Part shown: piece by piece, positions 1,257-42,793 of the stretch
Position numbering within the stretch: the first letter of the stretch is position 1
How the letters are laid out: each line of letters begins with the position of its first letter
Origin: a virus
Strand: one strand, 5' to 3'
DNA length: 44,657 nucleotides
Virus record (IMG/VR): IMGVR_UViG_3300042924_003382
Location: 1-44,657 of that record
Made by a program: the position numbers and the translations under genes
The notes under the pieces: model-generated
What the model saw: only the letters and a program-made list of their open reading frames with translations
Databases searched by the model: none
Told to the model about the DNA's origin: nothing

Positions 1257-1633
1257 AATGCTGTTTTTTTAACCAGTGCTTTCATTGTCCTTTCGACATC
1301 CTCTTCCACTTCCAACTCAATTTGCGAGTGCGCTTCCTTCTGATTGCGAATACGACGCTCAACATCAGCGTCATACGAACTGTCTCCAAACGGGTTTTCC
1401 GACATTCGATAAATCAACTCGTGAATGGTTTTCTCAACCATCGGCAAGTCCTCTTGGAAATCCCATGTGTTGAGCAGCGACCTAGCATGGCATGTAAACT
1501 GATGGATCCTGCGCTGCTGTGCTCTCTCTTGCGGTTCGGCAGCAAGCCTGCAAAGCATTCTATCCAGCTTTTCATTGGCACTCAAAAGACCGCCAATAAT
1601 CAAACGTAAGGTTGCTACAGTAGTGTCTCTCAT
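1253..1633 (-). CDS. Hypothetical helical protein
   Basis: A 126-aa protein of unknown function, starting MRDTTVATLRLIIGGLL. The ATG at 1633 overlaps the stop of the 48-aa gene upstream as ATGA, so I prefer it to the longer open frame reaching 1807. The sequence is charged and helical with no recognisable catalytic motif. The C-terminus is rich in E and K. Its position downstream of the helicase block suggests an early gene, but nothing in it shows a role. Confidence 0.75.
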   Translation of the reverse strand: MRDTTVATLRLIIGGLLSANEKLDRMLCRLAAEPQERAQQRRIHQFTCHARSLLNTWDFQEDLPMVEKTIHELIYRMSENPFGDSSYDADVERRIRNQKEAHSQIELEVEEDVERTMKALVKKTAL

Positions 1634-1776
1634 TTGGCGTTCTTGATAGCCTCCAGTTCTTTTTGAAAGAGAGTTTTCAGCTCCTCGATTTCGTGCTCTT
1701 GCAGATAGAACTGCGTGCTCTCCCAGATGTTCCACGCAATGTCCGCAAGCTGCTTTATTGTTAGCTTCTTCGCCAT
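1630..1776 (-). CDS. Small hypothetical protein (48 aa)
   Basis: A short gene in another frame of the longer ORF at 1253-1807. It reads MAKKLTIKQLADIAWNIWES and continues as a single amphipathic, E/K-rich helix, ending LEAIKNAK. The start at 1776 lies just after the stop of the HTH gene (1780), and its TGA overlaps the next ATG as ATGA, which is the junction style used throughout this genome. Function unknown. Confidence 0.7.
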   Translation of the reverse strand: MAKKLTIKQLADIAWNIWESTQFYLQEHEIEELKTLFQKELEAIKNAK

Positions 1777-1779
1777 AAC

Positions 1780-2130
1780 TCAGAACCCGATAAGTCTGTC
1801 CAGCCACGTCTTGCTCTTCTCCTTGTTGAATAGCTCCTGCAACTCATCCAGTTGCCGCACGAGGTCAGCATTCCGCTGCTCATTGGCCTGCACTTCCCGC
1901 ACAAGCCGCTCGATGGTCTGCTTCAGGGTGCCAATGATGCGCTTGCTTGCATCGCGCTGAATCTTGCCTTCTGGAACAATTCCAGCCTTCTTGCACACCA
2001 CATACACTGTCTGTGGGTGGATGCCGTACTTGCGTGCAATGTATGTGTAGGTTTCACCCGCCTTACGGTGGGAAATGATGCTGTCTTTGATGGCTTGTGA
2101 AAGCCCTGGTCTGCCTTGTTTCTTTTTCAT
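1780..2130 (-). CDS. HTH DNA-binding protein with C-terminal coiled coil
   Basis: A 116-aa protein. Residues about 9-50 form a helix-turn-helix of the resolvase/Hin type: GLSQAIKDSIISHRKAGETY followed by TYIARKYGIHPQTVYVVCKK. Residues about 60-105 are a coiled coil, so it probably acts as a dimer. The N-terminus is very basic (MKKKQGRPG). The role could be transcriptional regulation or origin binding; the position just after the helicase and nuclease genes fits either. The start at 2130 overlaps the previous stop as ATGA. Confidence 0.8.
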   Translation of the reverse strand: MKKKQGRPGLSQAIKDSIISHRKAGETYTYIARKYGIHPQTVYVVCKKAGIVPEGKIQRDASKRIIGTLKQTIERLVREVQANEQRNADLVRQLDELQELFNKEKSKTWLDRLIGF

Positions 2131-2345
2131 TTTTGTTTGTCTATTAGTGCTGATGTGATGACTGTTAGGTCATGGATCCTCTGCCTCATTTCCTCAAAGA
2201 GCATCGCTGCTTCCTCTGGAGTTTGGCAGTGGGTTGCTTTTCTCCACTTTTTAATCGTGGTGAAAACTTGCTGTTTTTCCGCTGAAGCGGAGTGATGTGC
2301 TGACCCCACAGGGGCCATTTCTCTGGATTGGAATTGAGATTTCAC
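2127..2345 (-). CDS. Hypothetical protein, start uncertain
   Basis: An open frame of up to 72 aa; a GTG at 2345 gives the full length and an in-frame ATG lies at 2318. Either way the start lies inside the helicase C-terminal gene (2251-2865). The part outside the overlap, with PEEAAMLFEEMRQRIHDL, looks like ordinary helical coding sequence and ends in ATGA overlap with the HTH gene. Function unknown. The gene could be shorter than given. Confidence 0.55.
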   Translation of the reverse strand: MKSQFQSREMAPVGSAHHSASAEKQQVFTTIKKWRKATHCQTPEEAAMLFEEMRQRIHDLTVITSALIDKQK

Positions 2346-2865
2346 GGTATTCTTCGTCTTCGACTTTCACCACCAACACCGCAGTTGCATCCTGCTGAAT
2401 CGCTCGCGACTCACGGGCTTTGCCAGCCTCGTTAAGCTGCGTGATTGCAAATAGGACGCACTTGAGTTCCATGGCCAATAAACGGAGTCCACGAGAAACC
2501 TCGGCTACCTCCCGCTCACGAGTGCCATCTTTGCCAAGATCGAAACGCACAAGCTGGATATAATCGACAACGATTGCCTCCAAGCCTCCGCTCTTTGCCA
2601 TAGCCCGTGCTGTGGCGCAGATGCTAGCAAGGTCATACAAGTCGTCCCGTACAACCAACCCAGTGCGTGCAAGGCTTGAGATAGCTGTGGCTACGCGCCG
2701 GAAATCTCCCTCGTTCTTCACGCCCTCTGCTAGCGTCCTAAGCGACACATTCGCTTGCTTAGCCACGAGACGGTCAAGGATTTGAGATGCTGGCATCTCC
2801 AGCGAGATGACGAGAATCTTACCTTTGCCCGTTGCCTGGCCTTGCGCTGGTTGTGTTGCGTCCAT
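2251..2865 (-). CDS. Split DnaB-type replicative helicase, C-terminal half (Walker B part)
   Basis: A 204-aa protein that begins exactly where a DnaB RecA-like core would continue after the Walker A helix. KILVISLEMP (16-25) is the conserved strand and glutamate after motif H1, EAIVVDYIQL (96-105) is Walker B, FAITQLN (139-145) is motif H3, and IPIQRNGPCG (178-187) carries the arginine that contacts the neighbouring subunit's ATP. There is no Walker A here; it is in the gene at 4138-4875. An in-frame stop at 2884-2886 rules out an upstream extension. The ribosome binding site is weak, and the start overlaps the preceding gene by 47 bp. Combined with the N-half the length is 449 aa, normal for DnaB. 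Confidence 0.88.
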   Translation of the reverse strand: MDATQPAQGQATGKGKILVISLEMPASQILDRLVAKQANVSLRTLAEGVKNEGDFRRVATAISSLARTGLVVRDDLYDLASICATARAMAKSGGLEAIVVDYIQLVRFDLGKDGTREREVAEVSRGLRLLAMELKCVLFAITQLNEAGKARESRAIQQDATAVLVVKVEDEEYREISIPIQRNGPCGVSTSLRFSGKTASFHHD

Positions 2866-3067
2866 TCTTGGTGATGGTGAAGTCTACCTTTATGTCATCG
2901 GTGGATTTGTCCACGGGCTTTAGGTCTTTTTTGAATTCTTTCAAAAAATCTTCGCAAGCATCGTAAGTGCCTGTGAACAAGACTGTCCGCACAATCTTCG
3001 GCCTAGGCAGCTTGAGCTTTTTGACCACCGTGCTGACACGAACCACCGTCCAATTAGTCGCGGCCAT
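2819..3067 (-). CDS. Small basic hypothetical protein between helicase halves
   Basis: An 82-aa protein, MAATNWTVVRVSTVVKKLKL onwards, rich in lysine. I chose the ATG at 3067 because GGAGG lies seven bases upstream; the start overlaps the nuclease stop by 14 bp. It has a likely beta strand VRTVLFTGTYDACEDFLKEF. No family is recognised. It is the last of three genes lying between the two helicase halves and overlaps the C-terminal half by 47 bp. Confidence 0.7.
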   Translation of the reverse strand: MAATNWTVVRVSTVVKKLKLPRPKIVRTVLFTGTYDACEDFLKEFKKDLKPVDKSTDDIKVDFTITKNGRNTTSARPGNGQR

Positions 3068-3836
3068 GGATAATCCTCCGTTTGGGAAGCCCAGGCCATG
3101 TGTCAGTCTTGACACAGCCAGCAAAGCGTTCCAGTTCAGCATCTATCGAGTCCTGCGCTTCTTGAATAAGCGGCGTAGCTGGAATCACAACCTGCGCTAA
3201 GTGAGGCTCTTCTGTGTCCACCACAGCAAAGTAGAACTCCACTTCATCCAGCGGCACATTGAGCGTCTTGTGCAGTCCGTACATGTACCATGCAGCCTGC
3301 CAGTGGTACTTGAGCGAGAAGAAGTTGCGGTCGAACGCCGCAATGCCGGAGGTGGTCTTTAAGTCAACCAAGATGAACCTGCCTCCCTGCTGCACGATGA
3401 GGTCGGGCCTGCCCTTGCATTGAACTCCTCCACGCTCCCAGAACATGGATGCCTCGGCCACCTTGCGCTTACATCCTTCAGTGATTTCGTCCAGCATTGG
3501 CGTTGCAGCCTGCTGCACCCCCAGCACCATCCGCTCTTCCTCGGCGGTTATGATGTACTTGCCAGTGTTGTCCTCGCAGAACGCTTGGTACGCCTCCTTT
3601 CCAGCCTTGGTTCGCCTGTCCGTGTCCGCAGGGAGCACTGCGTATTCGACTCGGTTCTCTAGCACCAGAGAGTGGATGACTGTCCCCATCTCCATGGCTT
3701 TGCTTGTTTTTTTATGCTCGTGCCGATGCTTGTAGAGAACTGGCGCAAAACAGAATGCGTCAAACTCGTGCTTACTCAGGCCGTGTGCAGCCCTGTAGTC
3801 CAGGGCTTCCATATCTGTATGTATCTTCGTTATCAT
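3054..3836 (-). CDS. PD-(D/E)XK nuclease, RecE/exonuclease VIII-like
   Basis: A 260-aa protein with the layout of the RecE/Exo8-like PD-(D/E)XK family (DUF3799-like). GTVIHSLVLE (51-60) supplies the family histidine; RPDLI (143-147) and VDLKTT (157-162) supply the acidic residues and lysine of the active site; the QAAWYMYGL segment (about 180-188) matches the conserved QxxxY motif. Such enzymes resect DNA ends for single-strand annealing, here probably with the OB-fold protein at 5687-6370. It overlaps its neighbours (ATGA at 3836). It sits between the two halves of the replicative helicase. Confidence 0.85.
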   Translation of the reverse strand: MITKIHTDMEALDYRAAHGLSKHEFDAFCFAPVLYKHRHEHKKTSKAMEMGTVIHSLVLENRVEYAVLPADTDRRTKAGKEAYQAFCEDNTGKYIITAEEERMVLGVQQAATPMLDEITEGCKRKVAEASMFWERGGVQCKGRPDLIVQQGGRFILVDLKTTSGIAAFDRNFFSLKYHWQAAWYMYGLHKTLNVPLDEVEFYFAVVDTEEPHLAQVVIPATPLIQEAQDSIDAELERFAGCVKTDTWPGLPKRRIIHGRD

Positions 3837-4141
3837 GGGTTCTTTTCAAATGCGCCACAGCCGACAACCCTGCCATTGCTGTCCCTGTGCAGCTTCGCTG
3901 GAGAGATGAGATCACTGCGCTCTGGCAATGCTTGCCGGACGTATTGGCTCACGATGTAAACAACGCCATCCTTCTTGGGCGGACAGTTCTGCACTGCGCC
4001 AGAATCGCACACCATCAACGGAATTCCGTCGATGTCCCCTACTTTTCGGAGCGTTGTTGCCACACGGGCAACGTGTCCAGATGGAGGATATTTGTTCCCG
4101 CATGCGTCTACTTCATGCGCCATGTAATTCACTACTTTCAT
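3833..4141 (-). CDS. Conserved hypothetical phage protein
   Basis: A 102-aa protein. I recognise a pattern seen in small phage proteins: PPSGHVARV near the N-terminus, GIPLMVC, GVVYIVSQYVRQALPERSDL and then RDSNGRVVGCGAF at the end. No function is known to me. The ATG at 4141 overlaps the stop of the helicase N-half as ATGA, and the stop overlaps the nuclease start as ATGA, so all three are tightly coupled. Confidence 0.75.
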   Translation of the reverse strand: MKVVNYMAHEVDACGNKYPPSGHVARVATTLRKVGDIDGIPLMVCDSGAVQNCPPKKDGVVYIVSQYVRQALPERSDLISPAKLHRDSNGRVVGCGAFEKNP

Positions 4142-4875
4142 TGTTTGTTCAGTAAGTTGCTGATGATATTGAGCGCAAGCATCGTCTTGCCGCTCTTGGT
4201 TTCCCCGCCGATGACCACATAGTCACCGTACCGAATGGGGCACATGTCGTCCAATTTCTTAAAGCCCGTGGAGATACGCATGCTAGAGTCATCCCCCTCT
4301 TGGTATCGTTTAGCTGCATCAACGAGCAGGCTCTTTGTGTCCATCGCTTTCGGCGGCACTGTCTCCCGCATGAGCGCATCCACTTTCATCGAGAGCGCAG
4401 CGATCAAGTCCGAAGTGGGCTGCTCGTTTGTCTGAGCGTCTTGAACGGCTTGGTAAGCCAGCATCATCAAAGCCCTCCGCTTGCTCGCGCCACGCACCAG
4501 ATTGATGAACTCCGGCATCGCCTGCACGACTCCGCACAGGTGATATAAGTCGGAGACTTCATGGAGCTGGATCGCCGGATTCTTTTCCCGTAGCTTTTCG
4601 TAAACTATACGTAAATCGCACGAGGCATTACGTGTTGTCTGCTCAAGCACCACCTCTATGGTCATCTTGCACAACGGGTTGCTAAAGTCCGATGGACTGA
4701 GCCTAGCCTCCATGGAGGCGTGAAGGAACTCGTTCGGATGGTTTAACGCAATCGAGGCTAGCCCACGCTCTGCTTCGTCGCAGGACGGTACGGTCAGGGT
4801 GACAGAATCACCAGCTTGTTGCTGTGCTTTGCGGAGCATTGGTGAGGGAAGGTTTGGCAGTTGGAGCTTGTGCAT
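4138..4875 (-). CDS. Split DnaB-type replicative helicase, N-terminal half (Walker A part)
   Basis: A 245-aa protein with a DnaB-like N-terminal helical domain (about 30-130), a linker, and the beginning of the RecA core: STGFKKLDDM, YGDYVVIGG, then Walker A GGETKSGKT (223-231) and the helix MLALNIISNLLNKQ, where it stops. In ordinary DnaB the chain continues directly into the strand that begins the gene at 2251-2865. No intein-like cysteine or serine junction is seen at the end. It overlaps the 4808-5263 gene by 68 bp and couples to the next gene by ATGA. The two proteins presumably assemble into one hexameric helicase; alternatively one half is not functional. Confidence 0.88.
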   Translation of the reverse strand: MHKLQLPNLPSPMLRKAQQQAGDSVTLTVPSCDEAERGLASIALNHPNEFLHASMEARLSPSDFSNPLCKMTIEVVLEQTTRNASCDLRIVYEKLREKNPAIQLHEVSDLYHLCGVVQAMPEFINLVRGASKRRALMMLAYQAVQDAQTNEQPTSDLIAALSMKVDALMRETVPPKAMDTKSLLVDAAKRYQEGDDSSMRISTGFKKLDDMCPIRYGDYVVIGGETKSGKTMLALNIISNLLNKQ

Positions 4876-5263
4876 AGGCCCGTGAGAGCCACGAGTTGAT
4901 AAATCGCATCATCCCGCGCAGCGACTTTCTTTTTGAGAAGTTCGCATTACTCCACATCAGAATCACCTTCAACTCCTTCTCAACCAACTCCCGACCATAC
5001 GAGCGTGTGAAGTCCCGATAGTCCTGCTCCTTGAGCCTGTACCATGCTCTGTCTCGGCTTGGGAAGTACCATGGCCATGTGTCGTCCGGCCTAGCAGGAA
5101 GCTCGTCTGGCTTCTCTGGAGCCTCGATAAGCTCAGGGTGTGTCTCGGCGATTGCCTCGCGATCTTCCTCAACCAACAAGGATTCCTTGTCGATTGAGAT
5201 TCCTTCAGCATCGAACTTAATCGTGATGCTGTGCCCGTCCTTCGTTTGTATGTGTATTTGCAT
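4808..5263 (-). CDS. Putative helicase-loader-like or replication accessory protein
   Basis: A 151-aa protein. I use the ATG at 5263 (MQIHIQTKDG); a TTG at 5281 would add six residues. The N-terminus looks like a small beta domain, the middle is acidic and proline-rich, and the C-terminus has FSKRKSLRGMMRFINSWLSR. A K-R-K...G..RFI..WL segment of this kind is common at the C-terminus of phage replication proteins that recruit the helicase. Being directly upstream of the helicase supports that inference, but it is not proven by sequence. Confidence 0.65.
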   Translation of the reverse strand: MQIHIQTKDGHSITIKFDAEGISIDKESLLVEEDREAIAETHPELIEAPEKPDELPARPDDTWPWYFPSRDRAWYRLKEQDYRDFTRSYGRELVEKELKVILMWSNANFSKRKSLRGMMRFINSWLSRAYAQAPTAKPSLTNAPQSTATSW

Positions 5264-5693
5264 GTATGTATGAGGATGCAATCAACAGTGCATCGGCTGT
5301 TTCTAGCGTCACCTTGACTTCGGGAAAGCGCATCCGCGCAATGTCGCGCAGCTTCGACTTCCACTTGCTGTGTGTCAGTCCGTCTCGTCCACCCACGCCG
5401 CATGCCTTTTGCCACTCCTTGGGCTTGACCATAATGACAGGCAGGTTGAGCGCAGCGCAAACCCCTAGCACCACGCCCACGGACTGGAACAGGACTGCCA
5501 CCATCGACCCTGGGATGTTTTTCCCTGTGAACTTGGGAACATCTTCGACATAAACCCCAGATAAAGGAAACTGGCGAAGCTGTTGCGCTAGCTCAACGGG
5601 AGAGGATGGCATGCCCCATGCACTGACTTTGCCCTCAATGCAGATGGCGATTCCGCCCTTAACACCTGGGTCGATGGCAGCGAAGTTTACCAC
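5217..5693 (-). CDS. RuvC-like Holliday junction resolvase
   Basis: A 158-aa RNase H-fold nuclease. The acidic residues fit: D8 in AAIDPGVKGG, E50 in VYVEDVP, and D134 in ETADALLIAS. Phage RuvC-like enzymes resolve branched DNA before packaging. The start is a GTG at 5693 located inside the last codons of the ssDNA-binding gene. The C-terminal tail (HANTHTNEGRAQHHD) overlaps the next gene by 47 bp and is probably unstructured. Confidence 0.85.
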   Translation of the reverse strand: MVNFAAIDPGVKGGIAICIEGKVSAWGMPSSPVELAQQLRQFPLSGVYVEDVPKFTGKNIPGSMVAVLFQSVGVVLGVCAALNLPVIMVKPKEWQKACGVGGRDGLTHSKWKSKLRDIARMRFPEVKVTLETADALLIASSYIHANTHTNEGRAQHHD

Positions 5694-6370
5694 TTCACGT
5701 CATCCTCGGTTAAGTCTTCCTCTGCAAACAGAGGCTCTTTCTTGGGAGCAGGTGCCTTAGCTGGAGCTTGGTCAAGCGGATGCGTTGGCATCGCGTTCTC
5801 TAGGCTACTCTTGTTCAAAGCAATGAAGAGGGTAGCAGTAGCAGCAGGGAGATCCACTTCGGGGTTCTCATCCTTAACCCACTTAGCAGCACGATGTGCG
5901 AGCAGATAGAGGTTCGCCAACTGCATGGCCCTCTTCCGTACACCATCCACGTCGGTGGCGACAATCGGCTGGGGCGAAGCTGACGCTGAAGCTTTGGAGC
6001 TAGAGGGAGCAGTCCCTGCGTTTGGCCCATCGAACCGTACTTTGTCGGTGATGGATAATTCGTTTTCGCCCTTCTGATCATTGAGTTTTACTTTGATGCC
6101 TTCCAAGCCACGCTTACCTGCCTGCGACTGCAAGCACACTTCCTTGCCCTTCAAATCTGACACGTCGATTCCCCAGAAGGATGCACGCACTTCCGTGCCG
6201 TTCTGTGTGAGGATAGCGTTCTGAACACGCCATTCGCCGTGTTTGCCTTGTCCTGTGCGTGGCGGGAACACTGCCTTCACCACTGCTTTTACTGCTGGAA
6301 CAATCTCTCCGTCGGATAAGCCAGCAACGTCACTGAGTTCTACTAATCGCATATCGTATATTCCTGTCAT
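5687..6370 (-). CDS. OB-fold single-stranded DNA-binding protein (putative)
   Basis: A 227-aa protein. Residues 30-115 look like an OB fold (GEWRVQNAILTQNGTEVRAS, then strand-rich stretches and KGKEVCLQS). It continues with an S/A/P-rich linker, a helical region and a very acidic tail, EEDLTEDDVKW, of the type that recruits partner proteins in SSBs. It heads the recombination/replication operon with the resolvase and the RecE-like nuclease. The ATG at 6370 overlaps the end of an upstream reading frame as ATGA (see the 6446-6595 gene). Confidence 0.7.
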   Translation of the reverse strand: MTGIYDMRLVELSDVAGLSDGEIVPAVKAVVKAVFPPRTGQGKHGEWRVQNAILTQNGTEVRASFWGIDVSDLKGKEVCLQSQAGKRGLEGIKVKLNDQKGENELSITDKVRFDGPNAGTAPSSSKASASASPQPIVATDVDGVRKRAMQLANLYLLAHRAAKWVKDENPEVDLPAATATLFIALNKSSLENAMPTHPLDQAPAKAPAPKKEPLFAEEDLTEDDVKW

Positions 6371-6445
6371 GCCAAGTTGCCCTTGGCGAGCATCCGCTGC
6401 TTCGTGCAGCAGATACTCAACAACTGCCAGCGTTCGCGTAAACGG

Positions 6446-6595
6446 TCAACAGGATTTTTTTGAATCCCTGTAAGTGTGTGCCGTGTTGGGCTTTGAGCCT
6501 TTCTGCGTGCCTAGCTCTTGGTGCAGAACTTTGGCAGAACGCTTGTCGGTCTGGTCTATGGACTTGATGTGCTTGAACGAGATTTCCTTTTTCAT
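6446..6595 (-). CDS. Small hypothetical protein, possibly frameshifted at an A7 run
   Basis: A 49-aa frame starting MKKEISFKHIKSIDQTDKRS and overlapping the stop of the large virion protein as ATGA at 6595. It stops at 6446 soon after a run of seven A (T at 6455-6461). If the run were six A, the frame would continue as NPVDRLRERWQLLSICCTKQ and end at 6367 in an ATGA overlap with the ssDNA-binding gene, giving 75 aa. That continuation looks like real protein and restores the usual gene coupling. Either the run is miscounted or slippage occurs. Function unknown. Confidence 0.6.
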   Translation of the reverse strand: MKKEISFKHIKSIDQTDKRSAKVLHQELGTQKGSKPNTAHTYRDSKKSC

Positions 6596-9500: not shown

Positions 9501-10782
9501 CTGCACGGAAACCTAGGTCAGCTTCGCTCTCTCCAGCGGCAGCGGCTTTTGCAATGTTCCGTGCTGCATCGTTGAGCACACGCTCCTTGGCAACCCTGCC
9601 GCTAGCAACGTCGTACAGCTTGAGTCCGCCACCAATGATGGTTCCAGCAGCAAGTCCTCCGCCGATGGCTTCACCAATCTCCTCCTCGCTCCTGCTCTGC
9701 AAGTAGCCTAGTCCGCCACCAATGGCTGCACCAATAAGCCCAGCTTCAGCAGCCTGCGAAGCCACGAGCGCAGCGTCCCGTGGGATAAGCCTTGCGGTGA
9801 CATTGAGGATTGCTCTCGCCCCAGTGCTGAGATTGGGGTTCATAGCAGCTTTCTCAACGGAACTGAGCATCCCTGCTCCACCTACTGCTTCCCCTGCTGC
9901 TGCGGCTACAGCTTCTCCTGCTGCGGCAACTCCGCGCCCTGCTGCTTGGGTTGCTGCAATCTCCATGGCCCCTGGGACGAGGCCTGTTGCAACATCCACA
10001 ACTGCCGCTTTGGTCGCCAAGTCTTGCGCGGTACGCTCTGCCACGTTTGCAGGGACTCCGGCGAGTGTCTCTGCTGCTTTAGCAAATAGACGCTCTGGAT
10101 ACGTTGCCGCACGAACTGCTGCTTTGCCTGCGCGTTCAGCAAGCTTTCCTGCTGCGCCTACAGCCTTAGTTGCCACAGCTCCGGCTTTGCCTCCCATTCC
10201 CACCACGGGAACAAGGTTCATTGGGTCAGCGACAATCTCTGCCGCTGCGACCTGCTGCGGGTTCACTGGCATTCCGGCAATAGCGGCGTTGCTCGTCTCG
10301 TGCAGGGAGCGTGCAGCGTTGATGGAGTCGCGCCAAGTGGAGTATGCCGTTGCGCTGTCCCCGTTCATTAGTTCAAAGAGCGGAGAGCCTGGGCTTGTGC
10401 CACCTTGTGCCAGCATGGAGTAGTTCTCGATGTTGTTGGCCAATCCACGCACCAGCGAACCAGGGACTGAAGCTGGATCGGACGCAACTGCTGGGATGGC
10501 TCCAAGCAGGTTCCTTCCCATTTGTACAGCCCCATTGAAAATGCTGCCAACCACCTCTGCGGTGTCGATGTCCTTACTTTTGTTATAGCTCCTTAGCTTC
10601 TCAAAATCGTCGTAGGTCGGGTTCCAGCTTGGGTCGAGCAAACGGTTCTTGAGGTCGTATGCCACGTCCTCCCCTGTGCGAGGGAAGTTCTGGTCGATGT
10701 ACTCGCCAATCTCTTGCTCAGTAAAGTCGTCCGCAAAAGTGAGCGTCTTGTTCTTGGACGGGATAAAGACTTCTTGCGGCAT
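6592..10782 (-). CDS. Large internal virion protein with HExxH zincin motif
   Basis: 1396 aa, the largest protein. Residues about 170-420 are very rich in alanine and glycine, with a likely membrane-active segment (GLIGAAIGGGLGY). A zinc-metallopeptidase motif HETVH lies at 502-506. Middle and C-terminal parts are helical and R/K/E-rich, with two RFQP-type linkers and a short repeat (GYRLFDPIGNRIGVF and KYRLYGATAGLIGVF). It resembles the large polyvalent proteins that podoviruses eject into the cell with their DNA. The start at 10782 follows the 442-aa virion gene by 3 bp. Confidence 0.75.
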   Translation of the reverse strand: MPQEVFIPSKNKTLTFADDFTEQEIGEYIDQNFPRTGEDVAYDLKNRLLDPSWNPTYDDFEKLRSYNKSKDIDTAEVVGSIFNGAVQMGRNLLGAIPAVASDPASVPGSLVRGLANNIENYSMLAQGGTSPGSPLFELMNGDSATAYSTWRDSINAARSLHETSNAAIAGMPVNPQQVAAAEIVADPMNLVPVVGMGGKAGAVATKAVGAAGKLAERAGKAAVRAATYPERLFAKAAETLAGVPANVAERTAQDLATKAAVVDVATGLVPGAMEIAATQAAGRGVAAAGEAVAAAAGEAVGGAGMLSSVEKAAMNPNLSTGARAILNVTARLIPRDAALVASQAAEAGLIGAAIGGGLGYLQSRSEEEIGEAIGGGLAAGTIIGGGLKLYDVASGRVAKERVLNDAARNIAKAAAAGESEADLGFRADLFSKLGESDRRGNNLGTFLVMEDLINQRGGKVKVVDGEVVKGPGGETGWNAYYDPNDKTIYINRSGADATTLPHETVHAFLTDVLADELTGRLFAKDAEGRLQQTAPDGAIAGLIEGYLKDADNITRPDGTTEGQRLRERLDAAFDPATPISEQVSRLRDITHEISARYAEQWVTKQNPRNFLTGAMPTIWSEAVNVARGKLDKLFGRETGNPVLDPTLKRIFSPKESGVPDRVGVPLDPRVLAQDFSDKKGKFMSLYKKSDANARQHWNPVWAKVEPILAQGGASKPLNARFEKNNLSLRGVGDDVIDGLARTNIETPLKSSGPILSAQEAAYTKMAIRAMQTGELLQGNNYMAFLKEGQAESGTARSGNPIDKRLAVVDVLWNKDNGVQILAVDIGSALNKLAADVRSKGNASGFDSIAQANKALNQYLRHVADSENNFDAAKKGWEIEVDGKPMGKTAHKTLHEALNFVTPQDKVPYRPDINIQRGGINRVSGIEFILPRRITGNLTQTGVVTPISNKGVEAIQLRFQPQRTKVEQMPKGMIAQDADGARIVKTDTSGYRLFDPIGNRIGVFSTLEKAAEAATAQAQKDLTTVKEIQYAIQEQRAKEVSVRQRASNREAVRQGDTQGQEAAGARQEEEGQVRFQPKRKKETLPKTPFAMGQQIEAGIRAAKQADVAQVRERITREGTGTSAERLAAQEAMAQEAALFAKPKKVALSDEQIAAIRDAGIAETYVRALLNFEDAYTKLTGEEPVGKAYRNEAMKMTSRQKDAILRLALSSDLPQAKLAMEVAREAADPAMRTAIERMFEAQQRAAERPPTKQEAGVEDVRRSLQTVLPQDFGVPSMRELQGLRRGVREVTEGALQDVRARGEAEAAQIAAEREAKLAQVEESATQAAAALSEEMAQRFKKIEAEIAKAEEVVTAEQEPIRKDRIILKLNGKYRLYGATAGLIGVFRNREDAIKKAKK

Positions 10783-10785
10783 ATT

Positions 10786-12114
10786 TTACTTCTTTCTGAT
10801 TTCAAATCCCGTCCCGCTTTTTGTGACAATTGGCTGACTCGATTGCTGTGCCGCTGGCTGGCCTTTTTTGATGACTTGCCCTTGGTCGTATCCCTTTGTG
10901 ATTTGGCTGTAGTATGAAGGCTTTTCTGGAACCAAATCTTTCAGTACAGGAAATTTTTTAGCCAGCTTCTCGGCTTGATTGAAAGCCGACACCATGCGGT
11001 TTCCTGTCATGTTTCGCAGCACTTCAACAGACTTTGCAAATCCGCCAGGGTTTGTGGTGAAGAAGTTTGCCATTGAATCCGGCTGCATAGCCGTGATGAA
11101 GTTCCACGCCTGAAGCGACCCGCCTAGACGCAAGTACTCGTTTTGAGATAGAGCGTCCGATGTCCCACTAATTGCCGTGTTGATAGACTTCAGAGAAGCC
11201 TTTAGAGCTTCAATCCTAGCCGCTCTATCTTGCCCTTTCGCTGTAGACGCTTCCTCTGCTGCTTTGCGAAGAGCTTCGATTTGGTCAATGTTCTCAATGT
11301 TCTTTCGGATTCTTTGCGTGATGTCGTTGAACGGCTCTTTTACAAGTTGAATATTGTCACGAACCATCTCCCGTTTATTTGGGGCCGTCACGGAATACAC
11401 AATGCCGTCAATCTCTTCAATTTCCGGCTTCCACTCAGAATCAAGCTGCGCCATGGCATTCTTCAATCCTGCCTCAACGGACATTCTATCCACGTTAGGC
11501 ATGCCTAAGAACTGTTGCGCTTGCTTTAGGTAACCCTGCTTAATTGCCTCGTATCTCTGCCTCTGTGCTGAAACCGCTTGCCGTGGAGCCTCTTCGATTG
11601 CAGGCCGTGCTTGCACTTGTTGCGGTGCTTGGCCTTCTTGCGCTGGTGCTTCTTGTGGAAGCTGCACTTCAAATACCGTTGACTCAATAGGCTTGTTTGC
11701 TTCAGCCAACCCAGCCTCTGCTGTCTTAAGTTTCTCCTTGGCTTTTGCAATGGCTAGATTCTGTTGCGCTGCTTCTTTTGCGCTCAAAGGAGGACGTTCA
11801 AATCTGCCACTAGTGGTCGGAACATACTTCTGCTTTCCAACTGCATCCAACTCCTTTAGAGCCGATTGCACTGCTTGCGTTTGCGCTGCAACTCGCTGCC
11901 CTTGACCTTCAATATCAGCCAAGTATGTCAGTGCCGTTTGGTTTAGCTGAACGGGGTCGTATGCCTTTTGATACGTCTGCCGCGCAGCCTCGACGTGAGC
12001 TGGGTTGTTCGGGTCAAATCCCTCTGGAACACGAATCTTGATTGGAGGCGTTGGCAACTCCCACCCTTCTGGGAACACGCCCTCCTCGTAGGATGCTTTA
12101 GGTGCTGCGTCCAT
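10786..12114 (-). CDS. Putative internal virion protein
   Basis: A 442-aa, mostly alpha-helical protein with a Q/A/P-rich central stretch (PAQEGQAPQQVQARP) and coiled-coil segments. No enzymatic motif. Its place between a 159-aa glycine/alanine-rich protein and the 1396-aa protein, and its composition, fit the internal or ejection proteins of podoviruses. The ATG at 12114 follows the previous stop by one base. Could also be a tail-associated protein; the family is not recognised. Confidence 0.65.
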   Translation of the reverse strand: MDAAPKASYEEGVFPEGWELPTPPIKIRVPEGFDPNNPAHVEAARQTYQKAYDPVQLNQTALTYLADIEGQGQRVAAQTQAVQSALKELDAVGKQKYVPTTSGRFERPPLSAKEAAQQNLAIAKAKEKLKTAEAGLAEANKPIESTVFEVQLPQEAPAQEGQAPQQVQARPAIEEAPRQAVSAQRQRYEAIKQGYLKQAQQFLGMPNVDRMSVEAGLKNAMAQLDSEWKPEIEEIDGIVYSVTAPNKREMVRDNIQLVKEPFNDITQRIRKNIENIDQIEALRKAAEEASTAKGQDRAARIEALKASLKSINTAISGTSDALSQNEYLRLGGSLQAWNFITAMQPDSMANFFTTNPGGFAKSVEVLRNMTGNRMVSAFNQAEKLAKKFPVLKDLVPEKPSYYSQITKGYDQGQVIKKGQPAAQQSSQPIVTKSGTGFEIRKK

Positions 12115-12115
12115 G

Positions 12116-12595
12116 TTATGGATTTAACGATTCCGTTTTGAACATAATCGGCGTTCCACTCCCGCTTCCGCTTCCTCCTGCCCTCATCCCTGCCACATCC
12201 AATCTGCCCTTGTTCATCTCGCGGATGCGGTTTAGCTCAAACATGTTCTTGAGATAATCGCTCACAGCAGACGTTCCAAACTTTGCAATCTGCGCGTTGG
12301 ATAATTCTGGGTCGTTTAAGAACTGGTTAAGCATGTACCCCGTTGAGCCTTCCGTCTTAACGTCGGGCATCGTTGCAGCGAACTTCTTAACAGCAGCAGC
12401 AGTCTTGTTTACATCCTGCGCGTTGGCATATGCGCCAGCAGCAGACTGAATCCCTGCGCCAATCTGTTCGCCAAAAGACTGCAATCCCTTGCCGTATAGC
12501 TCACCAGCTTTCGCCATCCCTTCAGCTACACCCTGCCCCATCATGGACATTGCCGCTGGTGGCTGATACCCGAATAACATTTGTGGTTTTGCCAT
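12116..12595 (-). CDS. Putative internal virion protein, small
   Basis: A 159-aa protein, MAKPQMLFGYQPPAAMSMMG, with A/G/M-rich helices and a C-terminal GSGSGSG linker. AGGAGA seven bases before the ATG at 12595 fixes the start, even though that start lies inside the end of the YkgJ-like gene. This kind of small alanine-rich protein ahead of ejection proteins is typical of podovirus virion operons. Function inferred from position only. Confidence 0.65.
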   Translation of the reverse strand: MAKPQMLFGYQPPAAMSMMGQGVAEGMAKAGELYGKGLQSFGEQIGAGIQSAAGAYANAQDVNKTAAAVKKFAATMPDVKTEGSTGYMLNQFLNDPELSNAQIAKFGTSAVSDYLKNMFELNRIREMNKGRLDVAGMRAGGSGSGSGTPIMFKTESLNP

Positions 12596-12932
12596 ATCGT
12601 TCTCTCCTAGCTTCTAAACAAAGTTGACTGCCTTTAATGAAGTTTCTGCAAGCCTGCGGTCTGTTGTTGTATATTGAGCAAGATGTTTGTACTCCAACTA
12701 TGCCTTGCAAAGCAACGCATCTATTGTTTGAAGTCTTTAGGAGAGGATAGTCCTCCCGTTGCATTTCCTTGGGGATTCCACTCGCATCCGACCGATCCCG
12801 CTTGAGAATCGGCCATGACCACTTGTGGCTGCAACACGCTCCGCACGTCTGGCAATCCAGCTCTGACGTTGCAATAGTCGAGTCGGGGCTGTTCGTGCAA
12901 AACGAACTCTGAGATGTTTTCAATGTCTGCAT
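12522..12932 (-). CDS. YkgJ-type cysteine-cluster protein
   Basis: About 136 aa. It has the YkgJ family pattern: CQTCGACC near the N-terminus, CVALQG, TSCSIYNNRPQACRNF and a final CLEAR. The eight cysteines should bind zinc or an iron-sulfur cluster. It lies in a different frame from, and overlaps by about 210 bp, the 3' end of the PAPS-reductase-like gene; it also overlaps the next gene by 74 bp. The ATG at 12932 is my choice; no clear ribosome binding site precedes it. A partner role with the sulfur-type enzyme upstream is an inference. Confidence 0.75.
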   Translation of the reverse strand: MQTLKTSQSSFCTNSPDSTIATSELDCQTCGACCSHKWSWPILKRDRSDASGIPKEMQREDYPLLKTSNNRCVALQGIVGVQTSCSIYNNRPQACRNFIKGSQLCLEARRERYGKTTNVIRVSATSGNVHDGAGCS

Positions 12933-34080: not shown

Positions 34081-34386
34081 CTAGCTCCACTTCTTCTCTT
34101 CAAGCAGCACTCCAATGAGCGCATAGCCAGCCATGTCCTTGAACGAGTCCATATACGCCTCACATGCCGCTTGCTTATCCTTCCGAAGCAGATTCTTGAT
34201 GCGCTCCATCTTGTCGTTCATTCGCACCACAACGCCCAATATCCCGAACTCGTCAATGTTCCGTGGGCCATAATCCTGCTGCTTCTTGTCCATCAACTGC
34301 ACAAGCTCCACGGCTGCGTACAATAGCTCTCGCCCCTGCTTCGTCTTTAGGCCCAGCTTCTCGGCCATATCGCCCACAGCGTTCAT
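34081..34386 (-). CDS. Nmad1/DUF1599-like protein
   Basis: 101 aa. The core KKQQDYGPRNIDEFGILGVV and VRMNDKMERIKNLL with a final DMAGYALIGVLL match the DUF1599 family (nucleotide modification associated domain 1), which is often found in phages near nucleotide or base-modification genes. The catalytic role is not established. This genome also has ThyX and two DNA methyltransferases. The ATG at 34386 overlaps the previous stop as ATGA. Confidence 0.8.
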   Translation of the reverse strand: MNAVGDMAEKLGLKTKQGRELLYAAVELVQLMDKKQQDYGPRNIDEFGILGVVVRMNDKMERIKNLLRKDKQAACEAYMDSFKDMAGYALIGVLLEEKKWS

Positions 34387-35266: not shown

Positions 35267-35377
35267 TTACCCCATACTCGCAACCTTCACGCATCCTCTC
35301 ACCAGCATCACCGCACCAATCGCCAGCACGGCGAGCACCGTCCCCAGCAAATCGCCCTGGTCATCATTCCTGCTCAT
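35267..35377 (-). CDS. Small membrane protein (36 aa)
   Basis: MSRNDDQGDLLGTVLAVLAI, then GAVMLVRGC and a short tail. One transmembrane helix (about 9-26). The ATG at 35377 overlaps the stop of the upstream gene as ATGA, and a strong terminator follows 70 bp later, so it reads as the last gene of the operon. Function unknown. Confidence 0.65.
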   Translation of the reverse strand: MSRNDDQGDLLGTVLAVLAIGAVMLVRGCVKVASMG

Positions 35378-36063
35378 TTGACACAACCAGTTAACCGCTC
35401 TATTTCCGCCGCATTGTTGCCATGCGCCCAGAAACCCACCACTACGCTCCGATTAGCTACCGCACACAGCCCACACGTTGCGCATGACACATCGTCCCTT
35501 CTCTGCGCAGGACAGCCCACTATCTTCCGCCCTTCCGGTGTGTAGCTCGTGGCTGGGTGGCCACGGGGTATGATTGTCACCACAGGTGCAATCCCTAGCT
35601 TTGCCAGTGCGTCAACCTCGTTCGGATTGTTTGCCGAAAGGTTCACCACGAACCCTTCTTTGTTGGCTCGTTCAACCGCTGCTCTGTTCCCCTTTGCATG
35701 CTTCCCCTTTGTGACTGGCTTGTGAGTATAGGTATACCCTTTCTTCCCCTTGTTTGCCTTGCTTAGTCTTGCCAATGCCTTGCCATCAATATGGTCACCT
35801 TCCCCTGGCAAATCCCCTGCTTGGTTATGTCGCCAGAGCTGCCCTTCCGGTAACCTTGCAATCTTATCGCAAAAAGCTTCCCAAGCTTCCCCTTTTTCCC
35901 CGCTGCTCACCTTGTCCCAATGTAGCCGCAACCGAAAGCCGCTCTCAGCATAGCAGCGCGAAATCATAGGACATGATGGCGGACATGATGACCTAGGGGA
36001 AGTGGACACAGGTATCGGGCCTGTTTTCTCGTTACTGCTTTTCAGCGTTAGGTGAGCGTTCAC
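35374..36063 (-). CDS. Cysteine-containing conserved phage protein (DUF7227-like)
   Basis: 229 aa. KTGPIPVSTSPRSSCPPSCP, LPEGQLWRHNQAGDLPGEGD, GYTYTHKPVTKG, VNLSANNPNEVDALAKLGIA and CPAQRRDDVSCATCGLCAVA match a conserved protein seen in many phages and plasmids, which I recall as DUF7227. Conserved cysteines at both ends (SCPPSCP and CATCGLC) suggest a bound metal. Biochemical role unknown. It couples to neighbours by ATGA on both sides. Confidence 0.75.
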   Translation of the reverse strand: MNAHLTLKSSNEKTGPIPVSTSPRSSCPPSCPMISRCYAESGFRLRLHWDKVSSGEKGEAWEAFCDKIARLPEGQLWRHNQAGDLPGEGDHIDGKALARLSKANKGKKGYTYTHKPVTKGKHAKGNRAAVERANKEGFVVNLSANNPNEVDALAKLGIAPVVTIIPRGHPATSYTPEGRKIVGCPAQRRDDVSCATCGLCAVANRSVVVGFWAHGNNAAEIERLTGCVK

Positions 36064-39123: not shown

Positions 39124-39307
39124 GTTTGATGAGCCTCGGCATGGTTATCTCTTTGTACACTGCGGACTTTAACATGTCGCACTCTAATAGCACAGACCTA
39201 TCTCCAGGGCGTGTATCCATGTCGTTGGTAATGCGAGTGCGAATACGCTGCTCCATCGATTCGATCAGGCACATGGCCCTATCTAATAGTTGCTCTGTTC
39301 TGTTCAT
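39089..39307 (-). CDS. Hypothetical protein
   Basis: 72 aa, MNRTEQLLDRAMCLIESMEQ, helical. Not recognised. It overlaps the methyltransferase gene (39279) by 29 bp and the HTH gene by 35 bp, so its ends are coded twice. Function unknown. Confidence 0.6.
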   Translation of the reverse strand: MNRTEQLLDRAMCLIESMEQRIRTRITNDMDTRPGDRSVLLECDMLKSAVYKEITMPRLIKHEREGTPTTTC

Positions 39308-40481
39308 GGTGATTGTTAAGCTCTTCCATCAGTGTCAAAAAAGCTCTGGCTGCGGTTGCGGGGACGACTCCGTTTCCAAGCATTCGCAACTCGTCGGTTC
39401 GATTGTCACTGGCGTAGCACAACTCTGCATAGTCCATCCAATCGGCAGGCCCATCAGCGTCTCCACCCACCTCGGGTTCAGTTTGCCGTTGCTCGGCGTT
39501 GCCCACTGCGGGTTCTGCACCGATGCTGCCAGATTCGGACTCCTGCCGCTCCCCTGCTTCGTCTTCCCCTCGGCAACCGCCATCTTGACCTGCGCTCTGC
39601 GCTCCATCATCGACGCATGGAACTTCTCCCACGGCGTCCCGTCGTTGGCGTTGGTTGCGTCCGGTGTCGGCCACAACTCTTGGCGGCTCCCACCAGAACT
39701 GCTGCTCGCCGGGGCGGGAGGGCCATGCACAGCTTCCCGCAACTGCGTTCCCTTGGCCCTGTTCAATCTCTTCTCGGTCAAACAGGCTCCCATTGAGTCT
39801 GTCACCTGCGCTGTCGGCCAGTTTGCCGGGACGGGTTTGCCATGCATCTCTGCCACTATCGCCCCCACCAACCTGTCCCTGCGGTTGCGGTGCGTGCCGT
39901 CGGGATTCACTGCATCGAGCGAGCAACCCGTCGTGTCTTTCCAGTCCCTCGCCTTTGCGGTAGGCCATGATGAACACCCGCTTGCGTTGGTGAGGTGCGC
40001 CAACTTCAGCCGCGCTGAATATTCCCCACGCCGTGCGGTAACCAAGTCCTTCCAGCTCTTCAATGACTTCTCGCAGCCCAAGGCTGATATGTCCCTCGAC
40101 GTTCTCGAAGAAACAGATTCGGGGTCGCAGAATCCGAATGCCATCTGCGATGGCTGGCCACAAGTGTCGCTCATCTTCGGCTCCAAGTCGCTTGCCTGCT
40201 GCGCTAAATGGCTGGCAGGGGTAGCCGCCAGAGAGGATGTCCACTCGGTCAGAAAACGCTGCCCACGGGAAGGTTCGTAAATCAGTCCAGATTGGAGCCG
40301 CGTCAAGTTGCCCGCCTTCCATGCGCGATAGAAGGAGTTCGACTGCGGCTGCTTCCCTCTCACAGTAAGCGATTGTGCACAGGTTGCTGACAACTCGCGC
40401 AAGTCCAAGGTCGATGCCTCCGTATCCGGTGCAAAGGCTGAGATGAGTGATTGAGGTAGTATCCACATGGTCTTTCGTCAT
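39279..40481 (-). CDS. C5-cytosine DNA methyltransferase
   Basis: 400 aa. Motif I (LCTGYGGIDLGL), motif IV with catalytic C89 (SGGYPCQPFSAAGK), motif VI (ENVEG, 126-130), motif VIII (GAPHQRKRVFI) and motif X (RMLGNGVVPATAAR) are all present. The region between VIII and IX is long and low in structure (LADSAGDR, VADTGRNQRQ). It would methylate phage DNA for protection. A second long frame (39335-40468) runs through almost the whole gene on the same strand. ATGA overlap with ThyX. Confidence 0.92.
   Translation of the reverse strand: MTKDHVDTTSITHLSLCTGYGGIDLGLARVVSNLCTIAYCEREAAAVELLLSRMEGGQLDAAPIWTDLRTFPWAAFSDRVDILSGGYPCQPFSAAGKRLGAEDERHLWPAIADGIRILRPRICFFENVEGHISLGLREVIEELEGLGYRTAWGIFSAAEVGAPHQRKRVFIMAYRKGEGLERHDGLLARCSESRRHAPQPQGQVGGGDSGRDAWQTRPGKLADSAGDRLNGSLFDREEIEQGQGNAVAGSCAWPSRPGEQQFWWEPPRVVADTGRNQRQRRDAVGEVPCVDDGAQSAGQDGGCRGEDEAGERQESESGSIGAEPAVGNAEQRQTEPEVGGDADGPADWMDYAELCYASDNRTDELRMLGNGVVPATAARAFLTLMEELNNHHEQNRATIR
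39335..40468 (-). CDS. Overlapping frame inside the methyltransferase gene (WPTP-repeat protein)
   Basis: 377 codons, in another frame of the methyltransferase gene but on the same strand. It reads like a real protein: MWILPQSLISAFAPDTEAST, then CAQSLTVRGKQPQSNSFYRAWK, SARLKLAHLTNASGCSSWPT, a central ELWPTPDATNANDGTP and finally LNPRWVETLMGLPIGWT. I recall phage proteins with this same architecture annotated next to or in place of cytosine methyltransferases. The ATG at 40468 lies 13 bp inside the other gene. WPTP/WATP motifs fall exactly where the other frame has VADT-type motifs. Whether it is translated is not shown. Confidence 0.55.
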   Translation of the reverse strand: MWILPQSLISAFAPDTEASTLDLRELSATCAQSLTVRGKQPQSNSFYRAWKAGNLTRLQSGLIYEPSRGQRFLTEWTSSLAATPASHLAQQASDLEPKMSDTCGQPSQMAFGFCDPESVSSRTSRDISALGCEKSLKSWKDLVTARRGEYSARLKLAHLTNASGCSSWPTAKARDWKDTTGCSLDAVNPDGTHRNRRDRLVGAIVAEMHGKPVPANWPTAQVTDSMGACLTEKRLNRAKGTQLREAVHGPPAPASSSSGGSRQELWPTPDATNANDGTPWEKFHASMMERRAQVKMAVAEGKTKQGSGRSPNLAASVQNPQWATPSNGKLNPRWVETLMGLPIGWTMQSCATPVTIEPTSCECLETESSPQPQPELF

Positions 40482-41116: not shown

Positions 41117-41295
41117 TTAGACATCTCCTTCTTCAGTTGTTCAATTAGTGCTGCCTGTGCGCTATTTTCCATGCGCAAATCGGCAATAATACTCAGCAGT
41201 TCTCTTTGCATTCGTTTAGCTTCTTTTTGGATTTCATCACAATCAGATGAATCCCATCCAGTTCCTCCGCAGCATTTACATGTTCTCAAACTCAC
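41113..41295 (-). CDS. Small zinc-knuckle plus coiled-coil protein
   Basis: 60 aa. The GTG at 41295 is preferred because AGGAGG lies seven bases upstream and the GTGA overlap matches the neighbouring junctions. It opens MSLRTCKCCGGTGW (cysteine knuckle as in DnaJ-like repeats) and ends in a coiled coil LRMENSAQAALIEQLKKEM related to the end of the 730-1107 protein. Function unknown. Confidence 0.75.
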   Translation of the reverse strand: MSLRTCKCCGGTGWDSSDCDEIQKEAKRMQRELLSIIADLRMENSAQAALIEQLKKEMSK

Positions 41296-41627
41296 GGCTG
41301 CACCTCCTCCCACTTGCCTACCGTGCGCAGAAACGCCTCGGCACGTTGACGGGCGGGGGCGTAAATGACGTTGAATGGGCTTTGCCAAGCACCAAGGTTT
41401 CTAGGGTAAAACACCTCACGCTGGTCGTCAGTCAGCACCTCCTCCGCTTCGTGCATCGCGTTGAGGTCGTTGCAGTAGTCTGGCATATACTTATATGCGT
41501 TGCCGCCTTGTCCTGGGAGTTCTGGCGGATAGCCCCACAGCTTGTGATTGTGCCAAGGCCCACTGTCATGGATGTCAGTCCATCCACACGCTTCGGCAAT
41601 CGCCACATTCATTTGCTGGTTGGTCAT
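41292..41627 (-). CDS. Small paralog-family protein (ACGW/NDLNAMHEAE family)
   Basis: 111 aa. It has MTNQQMNVAIAEACGW, DYCNDLNAMHEAEEVLTDDQ, PARQRAEAFLRTVGKWEEVQ. The last codons again hold GGAGGTGCAGCC, the ribosome binding site of the next gene (GTGA at 41295). ATG 41627 overlaps the previous stop. The middle loop (PPELPGQGGNAYKYM) is unique to this copy. Function unknown. Confidence 0.85.
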   Translation of the reverse strand: MTNQQMNVAIAEACGWTDIHDSGPWHNHKLWGYPPELPGQGGNAYKYMPDYCNDLNAMHEAEEVLTDDQREVFYPRNLGAWQSPFNVIYAPARQRAEAFLRTVGKWEEVQP

Positions 41628-41860
41628 GGCTGCACCTCCTCAAGTTTGATTTCAGACTTCACGACTGGCTTCAGCGTTGCGACAAGCTCGAAGATTTGCA
41701 CGGTCTCGAACCAGTTCACATCGGGGTCTCTCTTTAGGCAGTTGCACGACGAGTCAAAGAGTTCTTTGGACTCCTCAAGAATTATCTTCCGGCACTGCGT
41801 GAGAGTGAACGGCCCGTGAAGAGCATCCTCCTTGCCTGCTCGAAAGTAGTATCGGCTCAC
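41624..41860 (-). CDS. Small coupled-cassette protein (GYF-like N-terminus)
   Basis: 78 aa: MSRYYFRAGKEDALHGPFTL, a cysteine-containing middle (SSCNCLKRDPDVNWFETVQI) and the usual end EEVQP. GTG start at 41860, GTGA overlap. The first 38 codons are identical in DNA to 1-115. A GYF-like fold is only a suggestion from YYF....GPFT. In the presumed 41,745-bp circle the gene preceding it is the 112-414 gene; in the tail version it is the 41857-42249 gene. Confidence 0.8.
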   Translation of the reverse strand: MSRYYFRAGKEDALHGPFTLTQCRKIILEESKELFDSSCNCLKRDPDVNWFETVQIFELVATLKPVVKSEIKLEEVQP

Positions 41861-41872
41861 GGCTGCACCTCC
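41746..41872. repeat. 127-bp exact repeat, copy 2 (branch point)
   Basis: Identical to bases 1-127. To its right the sequence continues ccgacc (41873 on), whereas copy 1 continues tcccac (128 on). Both continuations encode a paralog of the same family ending in the same EVQP codons, so the divergence coincides with a gene-cassette boundary. Confidence 0.97.
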
Positions 41873-42249
41873 CCGACCATTTTCGTGACGTCACGTAAAA
41901 GGTCTGCTTCAGTTGTAAAGCATTCCTTTACTACTGGTTCCCACTTCTCCAGCGTCCGCAGAAACGCCTCTGCACGTTGCCGTGCGGTGGCGTGGATGTT
42001 CAAGAACTGGTCATCCAGATCTAACACTTGCGCCAGAGTGAAAGGGTATAATCTAACTTGCTTCTCTGTAAGCACCTTCTCCGCTTCGTGCATTGCGTTG
42101 AGGTCGTCGCAGTAGTCTGGAATTCCAGGTGACGGATCCCCATTTGGCTCTTTTGCGTAAGCGGCAAATCCGAATCCGCTTAATGGTTTTTTTAGAATCG
42201 TCCACCCGCATGCCTGTGCAATCGTCACGTTGATTTGTTCGTTGGTCAT
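41857..42249 (-). CDS. Small paralog-family protein with C-terminal extension
   Basis: 130 aa. MTNEQINVTIAQACGW, DYCDDLNAMHEAEKVLTEKQ, ATARQRAEAFLRTLEKWEP. The extra C-terminal VVKECFTTEADLLRDVTKMV before EVQP is shared only with the 42790-43161 copy (VVKHPFTTDGDHLGDVNKMV), and the DNA there is also very similar, pointing to recent duplication or exchange. ATG 42249 with GGAGGTGGCG upstream. Confidence 0.85.
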   Translation of the reverse strand: MTNEQINVTIAQACGWTILKKPLSGFGFAAYAKEPNGDPSPGIPDYCDDLNAMHEAEKVLTEKQVRLYPFTLAQVLDLDDQFLNIHATARQRAEAFLRTLEKWEPVVKECFTTEADLLRDVTKMVGEVQP

Positions 42250-42485
42250 TTCGCCACCTCCTCCCATTTGCCCATCACCCGCAGAAACGCTTCGGCGCGT
42301 TGCCGTGCGGTGGCGCGAATGCCAAATAAAGACCCCTCTACGGCACCCAAGATGTTAGCGTAAACCATGTATTGGTTTCCACTGAGTTCGTCCTCTGCCT
42401 CGTGCATGGCGTTGAGGTCGTTGCAGTAATTTGCGGACCACCCGTATAGCTGCGAGATGGCGGCGTTGATTTGGTCGTCGCTCAC
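42246..42485 (-). CDS. Small paralog-family protein, shortest copy
   Basis: 79 aa: MSDDQINAAISQLYGW, SANYCNDLNAMHEAEDELSG, ATARQRAEAFLRVMGKWEE. It lacks most of the variable loop between the first two blocks, so the loop is dispensable. It ends VAK rather than VQP because the next gene has a different junction (ATGA with GGAGGTGGCG). GTG start at 42485. Confidence 0.85.
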   Translation of the reverse strand: MSDDQINAAISQLYGWSANYCNDLNAMHEAEDELSGNQYMVYANILGAVEGSLFGIRATARQRAEAFLRVMGKWEEVAK

Positions 42486-42793
42486 GGCTGCACCTCCTCA
42501 TTCACTTTGTTCATCAGCTTCGTCAACAAGTCTCCCGCTTGGATACAGGCGTTATCTCCAAAGTCACCCCGAAGAGCTTGCGCGTGAGATATCGCTTCGT
42601 CGCGTTGAGCAAGCAAAAGTGCATTTTTGCGGATTAGTGGCCCACAAATCTCAGCAAGTTTAGCACAGGTGATATCTTGCCCGAACCCACCCTCAGCGGT
42701 CATAAACGAATTGCAGGTGTAGTTTGCGTGTCCATTGCGAATAGGCACCCACAACCCAGAACCGCACTTCGGACATTTATCTGGAGCGCTCAC
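42482..42793 (-). CDS. Zinc-ribbon cassette protein
   Basis: 103 aa, not in the ACGW family. CPKCGSGLW and later YTCNSFMTAEGG, CAKLAEICG suggest a zinc ribbon. The C-terminal half is helical (KNALLLAQRDEAISHAQALR) and the end is again EEVQP with the embedded ribosome binding site. GTG at 42793 in GTGA overlap. Unrelated proteins using the same junction show that the junction, not the protein family, is what is conserved. Confidence 0.8.
   Translation of the reverse strand: MSAPDKCPKCGSGLWVPIRNGHANYTCNSFMTAEGGFGQDITCAKLAEICGPLIRKNALLLAQRDEAISHAQALRGDFGDNACIQAGDLLTKLMNKVNEEVQP

Follow-up and report, generated by a model that had tools for sequence, protein, structure and literature searches.

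Hexameric helicases are assumed to need one continuous RecA-type core in each subunit. The locus described here raises the question of whether a phage can build that core from two polypeptides. The window (the whole stretch of DNA that was analysed, an IMG/VR viral contig of 44,657 bases) encodes the two parts of a DnaB-like protein in separate genes, with the Walker A motif on one polypeptide and the catalytic Glu, Walker B, H3 and Arg finger on the other. Our best reading, which we consider likely (with a probability of about 0.82), is that the two products constitute a two-chain DnaB-type replicative helicase; binding of the chains to each other, ring formation, and ATPase and helicase activity are inferred.

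Organization of the split locus

The two helicase genes, referred to here as the N-half and the C-half, belong to a run of overlapping minus-strand genes, listed below in reading order.

5687-6370, minus strand: 227-aa gene, the first of the overlapping run
5217-5693, minus strand: RuvC-like Holliday junction resolvase, in the same operon as the N-half (PHROG 1770, E = 9.9e-19)
4808-5281, minus strand: 157-aa open reading frame (ORF) directly upstream of the N-half and overlapping its start; no family match
4138-4875, minus strand: DnaB N-half, 245 aa (PF00772, E = 2.2e-5; DnaB_C positions 2-45; PHROG 19 positions 154-378)
3833-4141, minus strand: gene 4, 102 aa (PHROG 30542, E = 1.9e-20, and PHROG 21731, E = 6.3e-17, both without known function)
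3054-3836, minus strand: exonuclease VIII/RecE-type PD-(D/E)XK nuclease (Exo), 260 aa (PHROG 412, E = 1.3e-51; PF12684, E = 1.1e-20)
2819-3067, minus strand: gene 5, 82 aa, function unassigned (from sequence; all 80 loci have a homologue at this position)
2251-2865, minus strand: DnaB C-half, 204 aa (DnaB_C positions 47-254, E = 2.5e-32; PHROG 19 positions 380-571)

Homologues of the 157-aa ORF are present in most of the split loci. The start of gene 4 overlaps the stop of the N-half by 4 nt (ATGA), Exo overlaps gene 4 by 4 nt, and gene 5 overlaps Exo by 14 nt and runs 47 nt into the C-half; small genes follow the C-half. Gene 5 is taken from the ATG at 3067, where the homologous part begins, the listed 107-aa ORF having its start further upstream. 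Exo also matches the NCBIfam exodeoxyribonuclease VIII profile across its nuclease part (E = 3.3e-28), under the curated cut-off.

Position of the break

The N-half comprises the DnaB N-terminal domain, the linker, strand 1, Walker A (GGETKSGKT) and the helix that follows, and it terminates right after that helix (LNIISNLLNKQ, then stop). The C-half carries strand 2 with the catalytic Glu (SLEM), Walker B (VDYIQL), H3 (ITQLNE) and the Arg-finger motif (QRNGP). The whole length of the DnaB profiles (PF00772 and PF03796) is covered by both chains jointly and by neither alone, and the halves tile DnaB without gap or overlap, at positions 7-222 and 223-431 of TIGR00665. On Geobacillus stearothermophilus DnaB (2r6a), the N-half profile corresponds to residues 11-228 and the C-half to residues 232-439, so that the cut falls in the loop that joins the Walker A helix to strand 2. 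When the C-half was modelled with AF2 (pLDDT 69.5, with the core above 80), the model matched DnaB chains with Z of approximately 10.5, and in the G. stearothermophilus protein the match began at residue 230/231; the N-half alone gave a poor model (pLDDT 51). The homology of the two genes to DnaB and the exact position of the break are shown by these comparisons.

An earlier note, made from the sequence alone, had given the coordinates, frames and sequences of both halves, had placed the end of one gene after the Walker A helix and the resumption of the other at the next strand, had summed the halves to a full DnaB of 449 aa (245 + 204), had described three intact, coupled genes including a RecE-type nuclease between them, and had seen no intein signature. 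All of these claims held, the second of them by both profile and structure mapping. One correction is needed: the C-half of the window carries about 12 extra N-terminal residues that are missing from most relatives. The window's own small lineage has its C-half start extended by 8-12 residues.

The C-half departs from DnaB in two respects, lacking part of the segment after H3 (a short deletion) and having Ile in place of the DnaB Lys in the K-x-R finger motif; its chemistry may therefore be altered.

Conservation of the split arrangement

Scans of IMG/VR with either half gathered more than 100 contigs. All 80 distinct N-half and C-half pairs have the gene order N-4-Exo-5-C, with distances of 1.23 to 3.65 kb between the halves, and none is fused. 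All aligned members are cut at the same loop: N-halves end with LN[IV][IV]xx[LVI][LIM] and a further 0-17 residues, and most C-halves start with M-x-[KRQPT]-G-I-L-[IV]-[IV]-SLEM, the ATG being fixed 8 residues ahead of SLEM in nearly all relatives. This ATG often overlaps the stop of the preceding gene, whether that gene is gene 5, a methyltransferase or a Mom-like acyltransferase. Conservation of the break is thus shown directly.

The motifs are likewise retained. Walker A is kept in 88 of 89 unique N-halves (the exception is a fragment), and among 66 full C-halves SLEM, ITQLNE and QR[NS]GP are present in every one and VDY[IL]QL in 65. Divergence reaches 67% of residues among N-halves (lowest identity 33%) and 55% among C-halves, which argues that the split state is old. 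Both halves are under purifying selection, with Nei-Gojobori dN/dS values of 0.04-0.09 (N-half) and 0.03-0.09 (C-half), similar to those of Exo.

No other DnaB_C copy accompanies the halves. A search of the window record for DnaB_C and for primase-helicase (PHROG 239) found only the two halves, and in 28 larger related records, without exception, DnaB_C matched the two halves and nothing else. The absence of a third copy is strong evidence but not absolute, since the completeness of the 28 records is not given.

Among the named phages of INPHARED, the N-half query found no match at 1e-5 and the C-half query found only ordinary DnaB proteins, at about 32-34%; scans of bacterial genomes revealed no relative. 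An apparent separate C-terminal gene in Dolichospermum phage Dfl-JY45 was rejected, as it is one 1.4-kb gene. The split is fixed across a group of freshwater bacterial viruses and is ancient.

The gap between the halves is a variable cargo site in the relatives, lying beside the invariant genes 4, Exo and 5. The cargo, with identities assigned from sequence motifs, includes C5-methyltransferase, HNH, Mom-like acyltransferase and dNMP kinase genes (L018, L040, L024, L034, L042, L052, L082, L099 and L104).

The window and one relative, L002, share 92% identity in the N-half, 99% in the C-half and 100% in the nuclease. This contrast points to recombination inside the operon, with mixed halves tolerated at that distance.

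An unsplit relative and the direction of change

Unsplit forms were sought with a pattern requiring Walker A and LEMP within 60-90 nt, which would miss members with LEMS. Nine contigs were recovered, of which eight encode ordinary or distant helicases; the ninth, L242, encodes the following gene.

319-1584 of IMGVR_UViG_3300034012_002308 (14.5 kb): L242 one-piece helicase, 421 aa (N profile, 4e-44; C profile, 6e-70)

The L242 helicase matches the phage DnaB family TIGR03600 / PHROG 19 (E = 9.6e-50). Identities between L242 and the window are 69% for the portal, 65% for the terminase, and 34% and 51% for the N and C parts of the helicase, and L242 belongs to the phage family of the window and its helicase to the same subfamily. 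The segment after H3 is also short in the L242 helicase; the deletion is therefore not a result of the split. Gene 4, Exo and gene 5 are absent from the 14.5 kb examined, and the helicase gene is preceded by a methyltransferase-like ORF.

In a tree of the joined halves, L242 and the split proteins group together, well separated from ordinary DnaB (100/100), and a single split clade excluding L242 is not resolved (40/57). The terminase tree joins L242 with the window (96/86), and its position in the portal tree is unresolved. Fission is the simplest direction of change because all more distant DnaB proteins are in one piece, and it is the most likely one given an unsplit close homologue in the same phage family. 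Because L242 is placed beside the split lineages or within them, however, retention of the ancestral form, re-fusion and gene exchange cannot be distinguished in L242.

Two observations concern L242 alone. Its terminase gene (10023-12644) has an apparent intein inserted at Walker A (GGNR/CLAAETL...VIHHN/SAKSS, with slashes at the borders), and an HNH-like ORF (10522-11109) lies on the strand opposite to this gene.

The earlier note had named two results that would refute it, and neither was obtained: no separate full-length helicase was found in the record or in the 28 others, and neither half is decayed in relatives. It had also proposed a search for the unsplit gene with identical flanks; the unsplit gene was found in L242, but its neighbours differ. 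Its claim that a three-gene insertion caused the break is plausible and not shown, and on that footing we regard acquisition of 4-Exo-5 at the loop as the likely cause. Its view that a helicase would have to assemble from two chains is supported, with assembly and activity remaining inferences.

A probable two-chain helicase

In the model that we favor, the dnaB product is made as two polypeptides, the N-half supplying the collar domain, linker, first strand and P-loop, and the C-half supplying the remainder of the RecA-type core. In the RecA fold, strand 1 with the P-loop is a central strand of the core sheet, and the N-half would therefore have to insert a strand and a helix into the sheet of the C-half. 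This non-covalent assembly, with the N-half's strand 1 and P-loop helix completing the C-half sheet, is predicted to give six N:C pairs and hence a six-fold ring of 12 chains. ATP would be bound by Walker A of the N-half and hydrolysed with the catalytic Glu, Walker B and H3 of the C-half, the Arg finger being contributed by a neighbouring C-half. The arrangement would have originated by fission of an ordinary one-piece dnaB, probably through the gain of 4-Exo-5 in the loop region.

That the halves bind each other is inferred because the motifs are kept, both halves are always present and their distances co-vary; that they share an active site is inferred because neither half alone would need its share of one site. 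The correlation of N-half with C-half distances is 0.82 (rho), and the partial correlation given the three intervening genes is 0.54-0.61 at all thinning levels. Correlations of the N-half with the intervening genes are 0.64-0.69, and the N-C value is higher in 96% of bootstraps. Within the largest clade alone the N-C value is 0.61 and that of the N-half with gene 4 is 0.66, and as the former does not exceed the latter we treat the co-variation as supporting rather than decisive. The co-variation of the halves with one another is at least as close as their co-variation with the intervening genes.

A bolder reading, that the fission is useful and not merely tolerated, seems to us unlikely. Under it, with the nuclease operon between the halves, the helicase could be assembled only once the recombination operon had been translated at both its ends, the ring would form around DNA from two chains without a ring-opening loader, and activation could be timed through supply of the C-half.

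Alternative explanations

The alternative that survives best, although it is unlikely, is that the halves do not form a joint helicase and that one or both have a role of their own, such as joining or poisoning the host DnaB ring, loading or regulation, with the host helicase being used for replication. There are no activity data; the N-half has the collar and linker, which touch neighbouring subunits in DnaB; and DnaB proteins consisting of a single RecA-core domain are known in mycobacteriophages (PMC4523182). No DNA polymerase A domain was detected in the window, and no primase or RNA polymerase among the ORFs inspected; the lack of the polymerase domain means that part of the replication machinery, at least, must come from the host. 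Against this alternative, Walker A on one chain and the Glu, Walker B, H3 and Arg finger on the other are kept down to 33% N-half identity, a conservation that would be purposeless unless the motifs form one joint site. Moreover, the known single-domain forms have Walker A in the same chain, and here both halves invariably co-occur.

A second alternative, that a single chain is rebuilt by intron splicing, a split intein, ribosome bypass or DNA excision of 4-Exo-5, is very unlikely. In its favor, Dassa et al. 2009 reportedly describes fractured phage genes with split inteins (cited in PMC10343443), an unsplit form exists in L242, and an apparent intein sits in the L242 terminase. Several observations weigh against it. 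The inner ends have no intein residues and no room for a split intein, N-halves running only 0-17 residues past the Walker A helix and C-halves opening about 4 residues ahead of strand 2; an Rfam search over window positions 1500-6500 gave no intron match at E up to 1; the gap is packed with overlapping genes and varies in length and cargo; and translation of the C-half starts at a fixed ATG of its own. The motif-pattern scan (which would miss LEMS members) gave no fused form of the split lineages, L242 being the only unsplit one. Excision of a mobile element was considered and rejected: the sole exact direct repeat, of 12 nt (2953-2964 / 4174-4185), does not coincide with the two break points. 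Two separately translated chains are the only reading that fits the intein and intron negatives, the filled gap and the fixed C-half start.

The remaining alternative, a pseudogene or assembly artefact in which a helicase was recently broken by insertion, has in its favor only a frameshifted N-half in one contig (L074/L195), likely a sequencing error, and is all but excluded by 80 independent pairs with intact frames and dN/dS below 0.1, the identical arrangement in 80 of 80 distinct loci ruling out chance or artefact.

Other features of the window

Further features of the window were recorded.

39279-40481, minus strand: C5 DNA methyltransferase (PHROG 363)
39335-40468, minus strand: 377-aa ORF in another frame (MWILPKSL...WPTAKARDWKD...NPRWVETLMGLPIGWT), overlapping almost all of the methyltransferase gene; no Pfam match
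35374-36063, minus strand: DUF7227 protein (PF23872, E = 1.8e-88)
34081-34386: DUF1599 'nucleotide modification associated' gene
112-414, 41292-41627, 41857-42267, 42790-43242 and 43158-43553, minus strand: copies of a repeated small-protein family (MTNEQIN.AIAEACGW...ARQRAEAFLRTLGKWEEVQP)

The long overlapping pair of frames recurs beside methyltransferases in five relatives (L018, L040, L076, L031 and L065), which suggests a conserved overprinted gene. The DUF7227 gene lies near the DUF1599 gene, a thymidylate synthase gene and methyltransferase genes, and this cluster could be a DNA modification set, an assignment that we regard as tentative. The small-protein family has several tandem copies and occurs at both ends of the record; the copy at 41292-41627 has no Pfam match, and members are also found as cargo in L053, L050 and L096.

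Comparison with known systems

Phage genes in pieces are already known. What is new here is a replicative helicase that is cut inside its ATPase core, without an intein, and fixed across a phage group; no earlier report of a split DnaB without an intein was found in the open-access literature searched. If the halves assemble, two chains can between them form the ATP site of a ring motor, and the split offers ready-made cut points for conditional helicases and a route to studying how rings are loaded onto DNA. Annotation pipelines will call the helicase of such phages broken or missing.

The closest parallels are NrdA of Aeh1 (interrupted by mobE), the T4 topoisomerase gp39/gp60 (mobA) and the Aeromonas phage polymerase 43A/43B (reviewed in PMC2988022), of which the NrdA and 43A/43B parts have been shown to work together (PMC2988022). 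As in these cases, the coding sequence of a central enzyme of replication or nucleotide metabolism is divided into two genes that are separated by other DNA, and a related phage (L242) has an unsplit homologue. The split DnaB differs in that the enzyme is a hexameric helicase whose break separates Walker A from Walker B within a single ATP site, and in that many related phages share the split as a fixed trait, whereas the genes in pieces are known from single phages. NrdA and gp60 were broken by homing endonucleases; the invariant intervening genes here are 4, Exo and 5, none of them of homing type, and an HNH gene is present only as extra cargo (for example in L018), although a lost endonuclease is not excluded.

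Fractured genes with split inteins, reported to include gp41-type DnaB helicases (Dassa et al. 2009, cited in PMC10343443), are similar in that a phage DnaB-like helicase gene is in two with other genes between, but their halves are rejoined by intein pieces, of which the split DnaB has none. The joined halves align along nearly the whole of the TIGR03600 / PHROG 19 family profile, yet they differ from its one-gene members in being two genes and in their shortened segment after H3. The mycobacteriophage DnaB proteins with a RecA core only (PMC4523182) likewise have fewer DnaB domains per chain; they retain a complete ATPase core with Walker A, whereas here it is the core itself that is cut.
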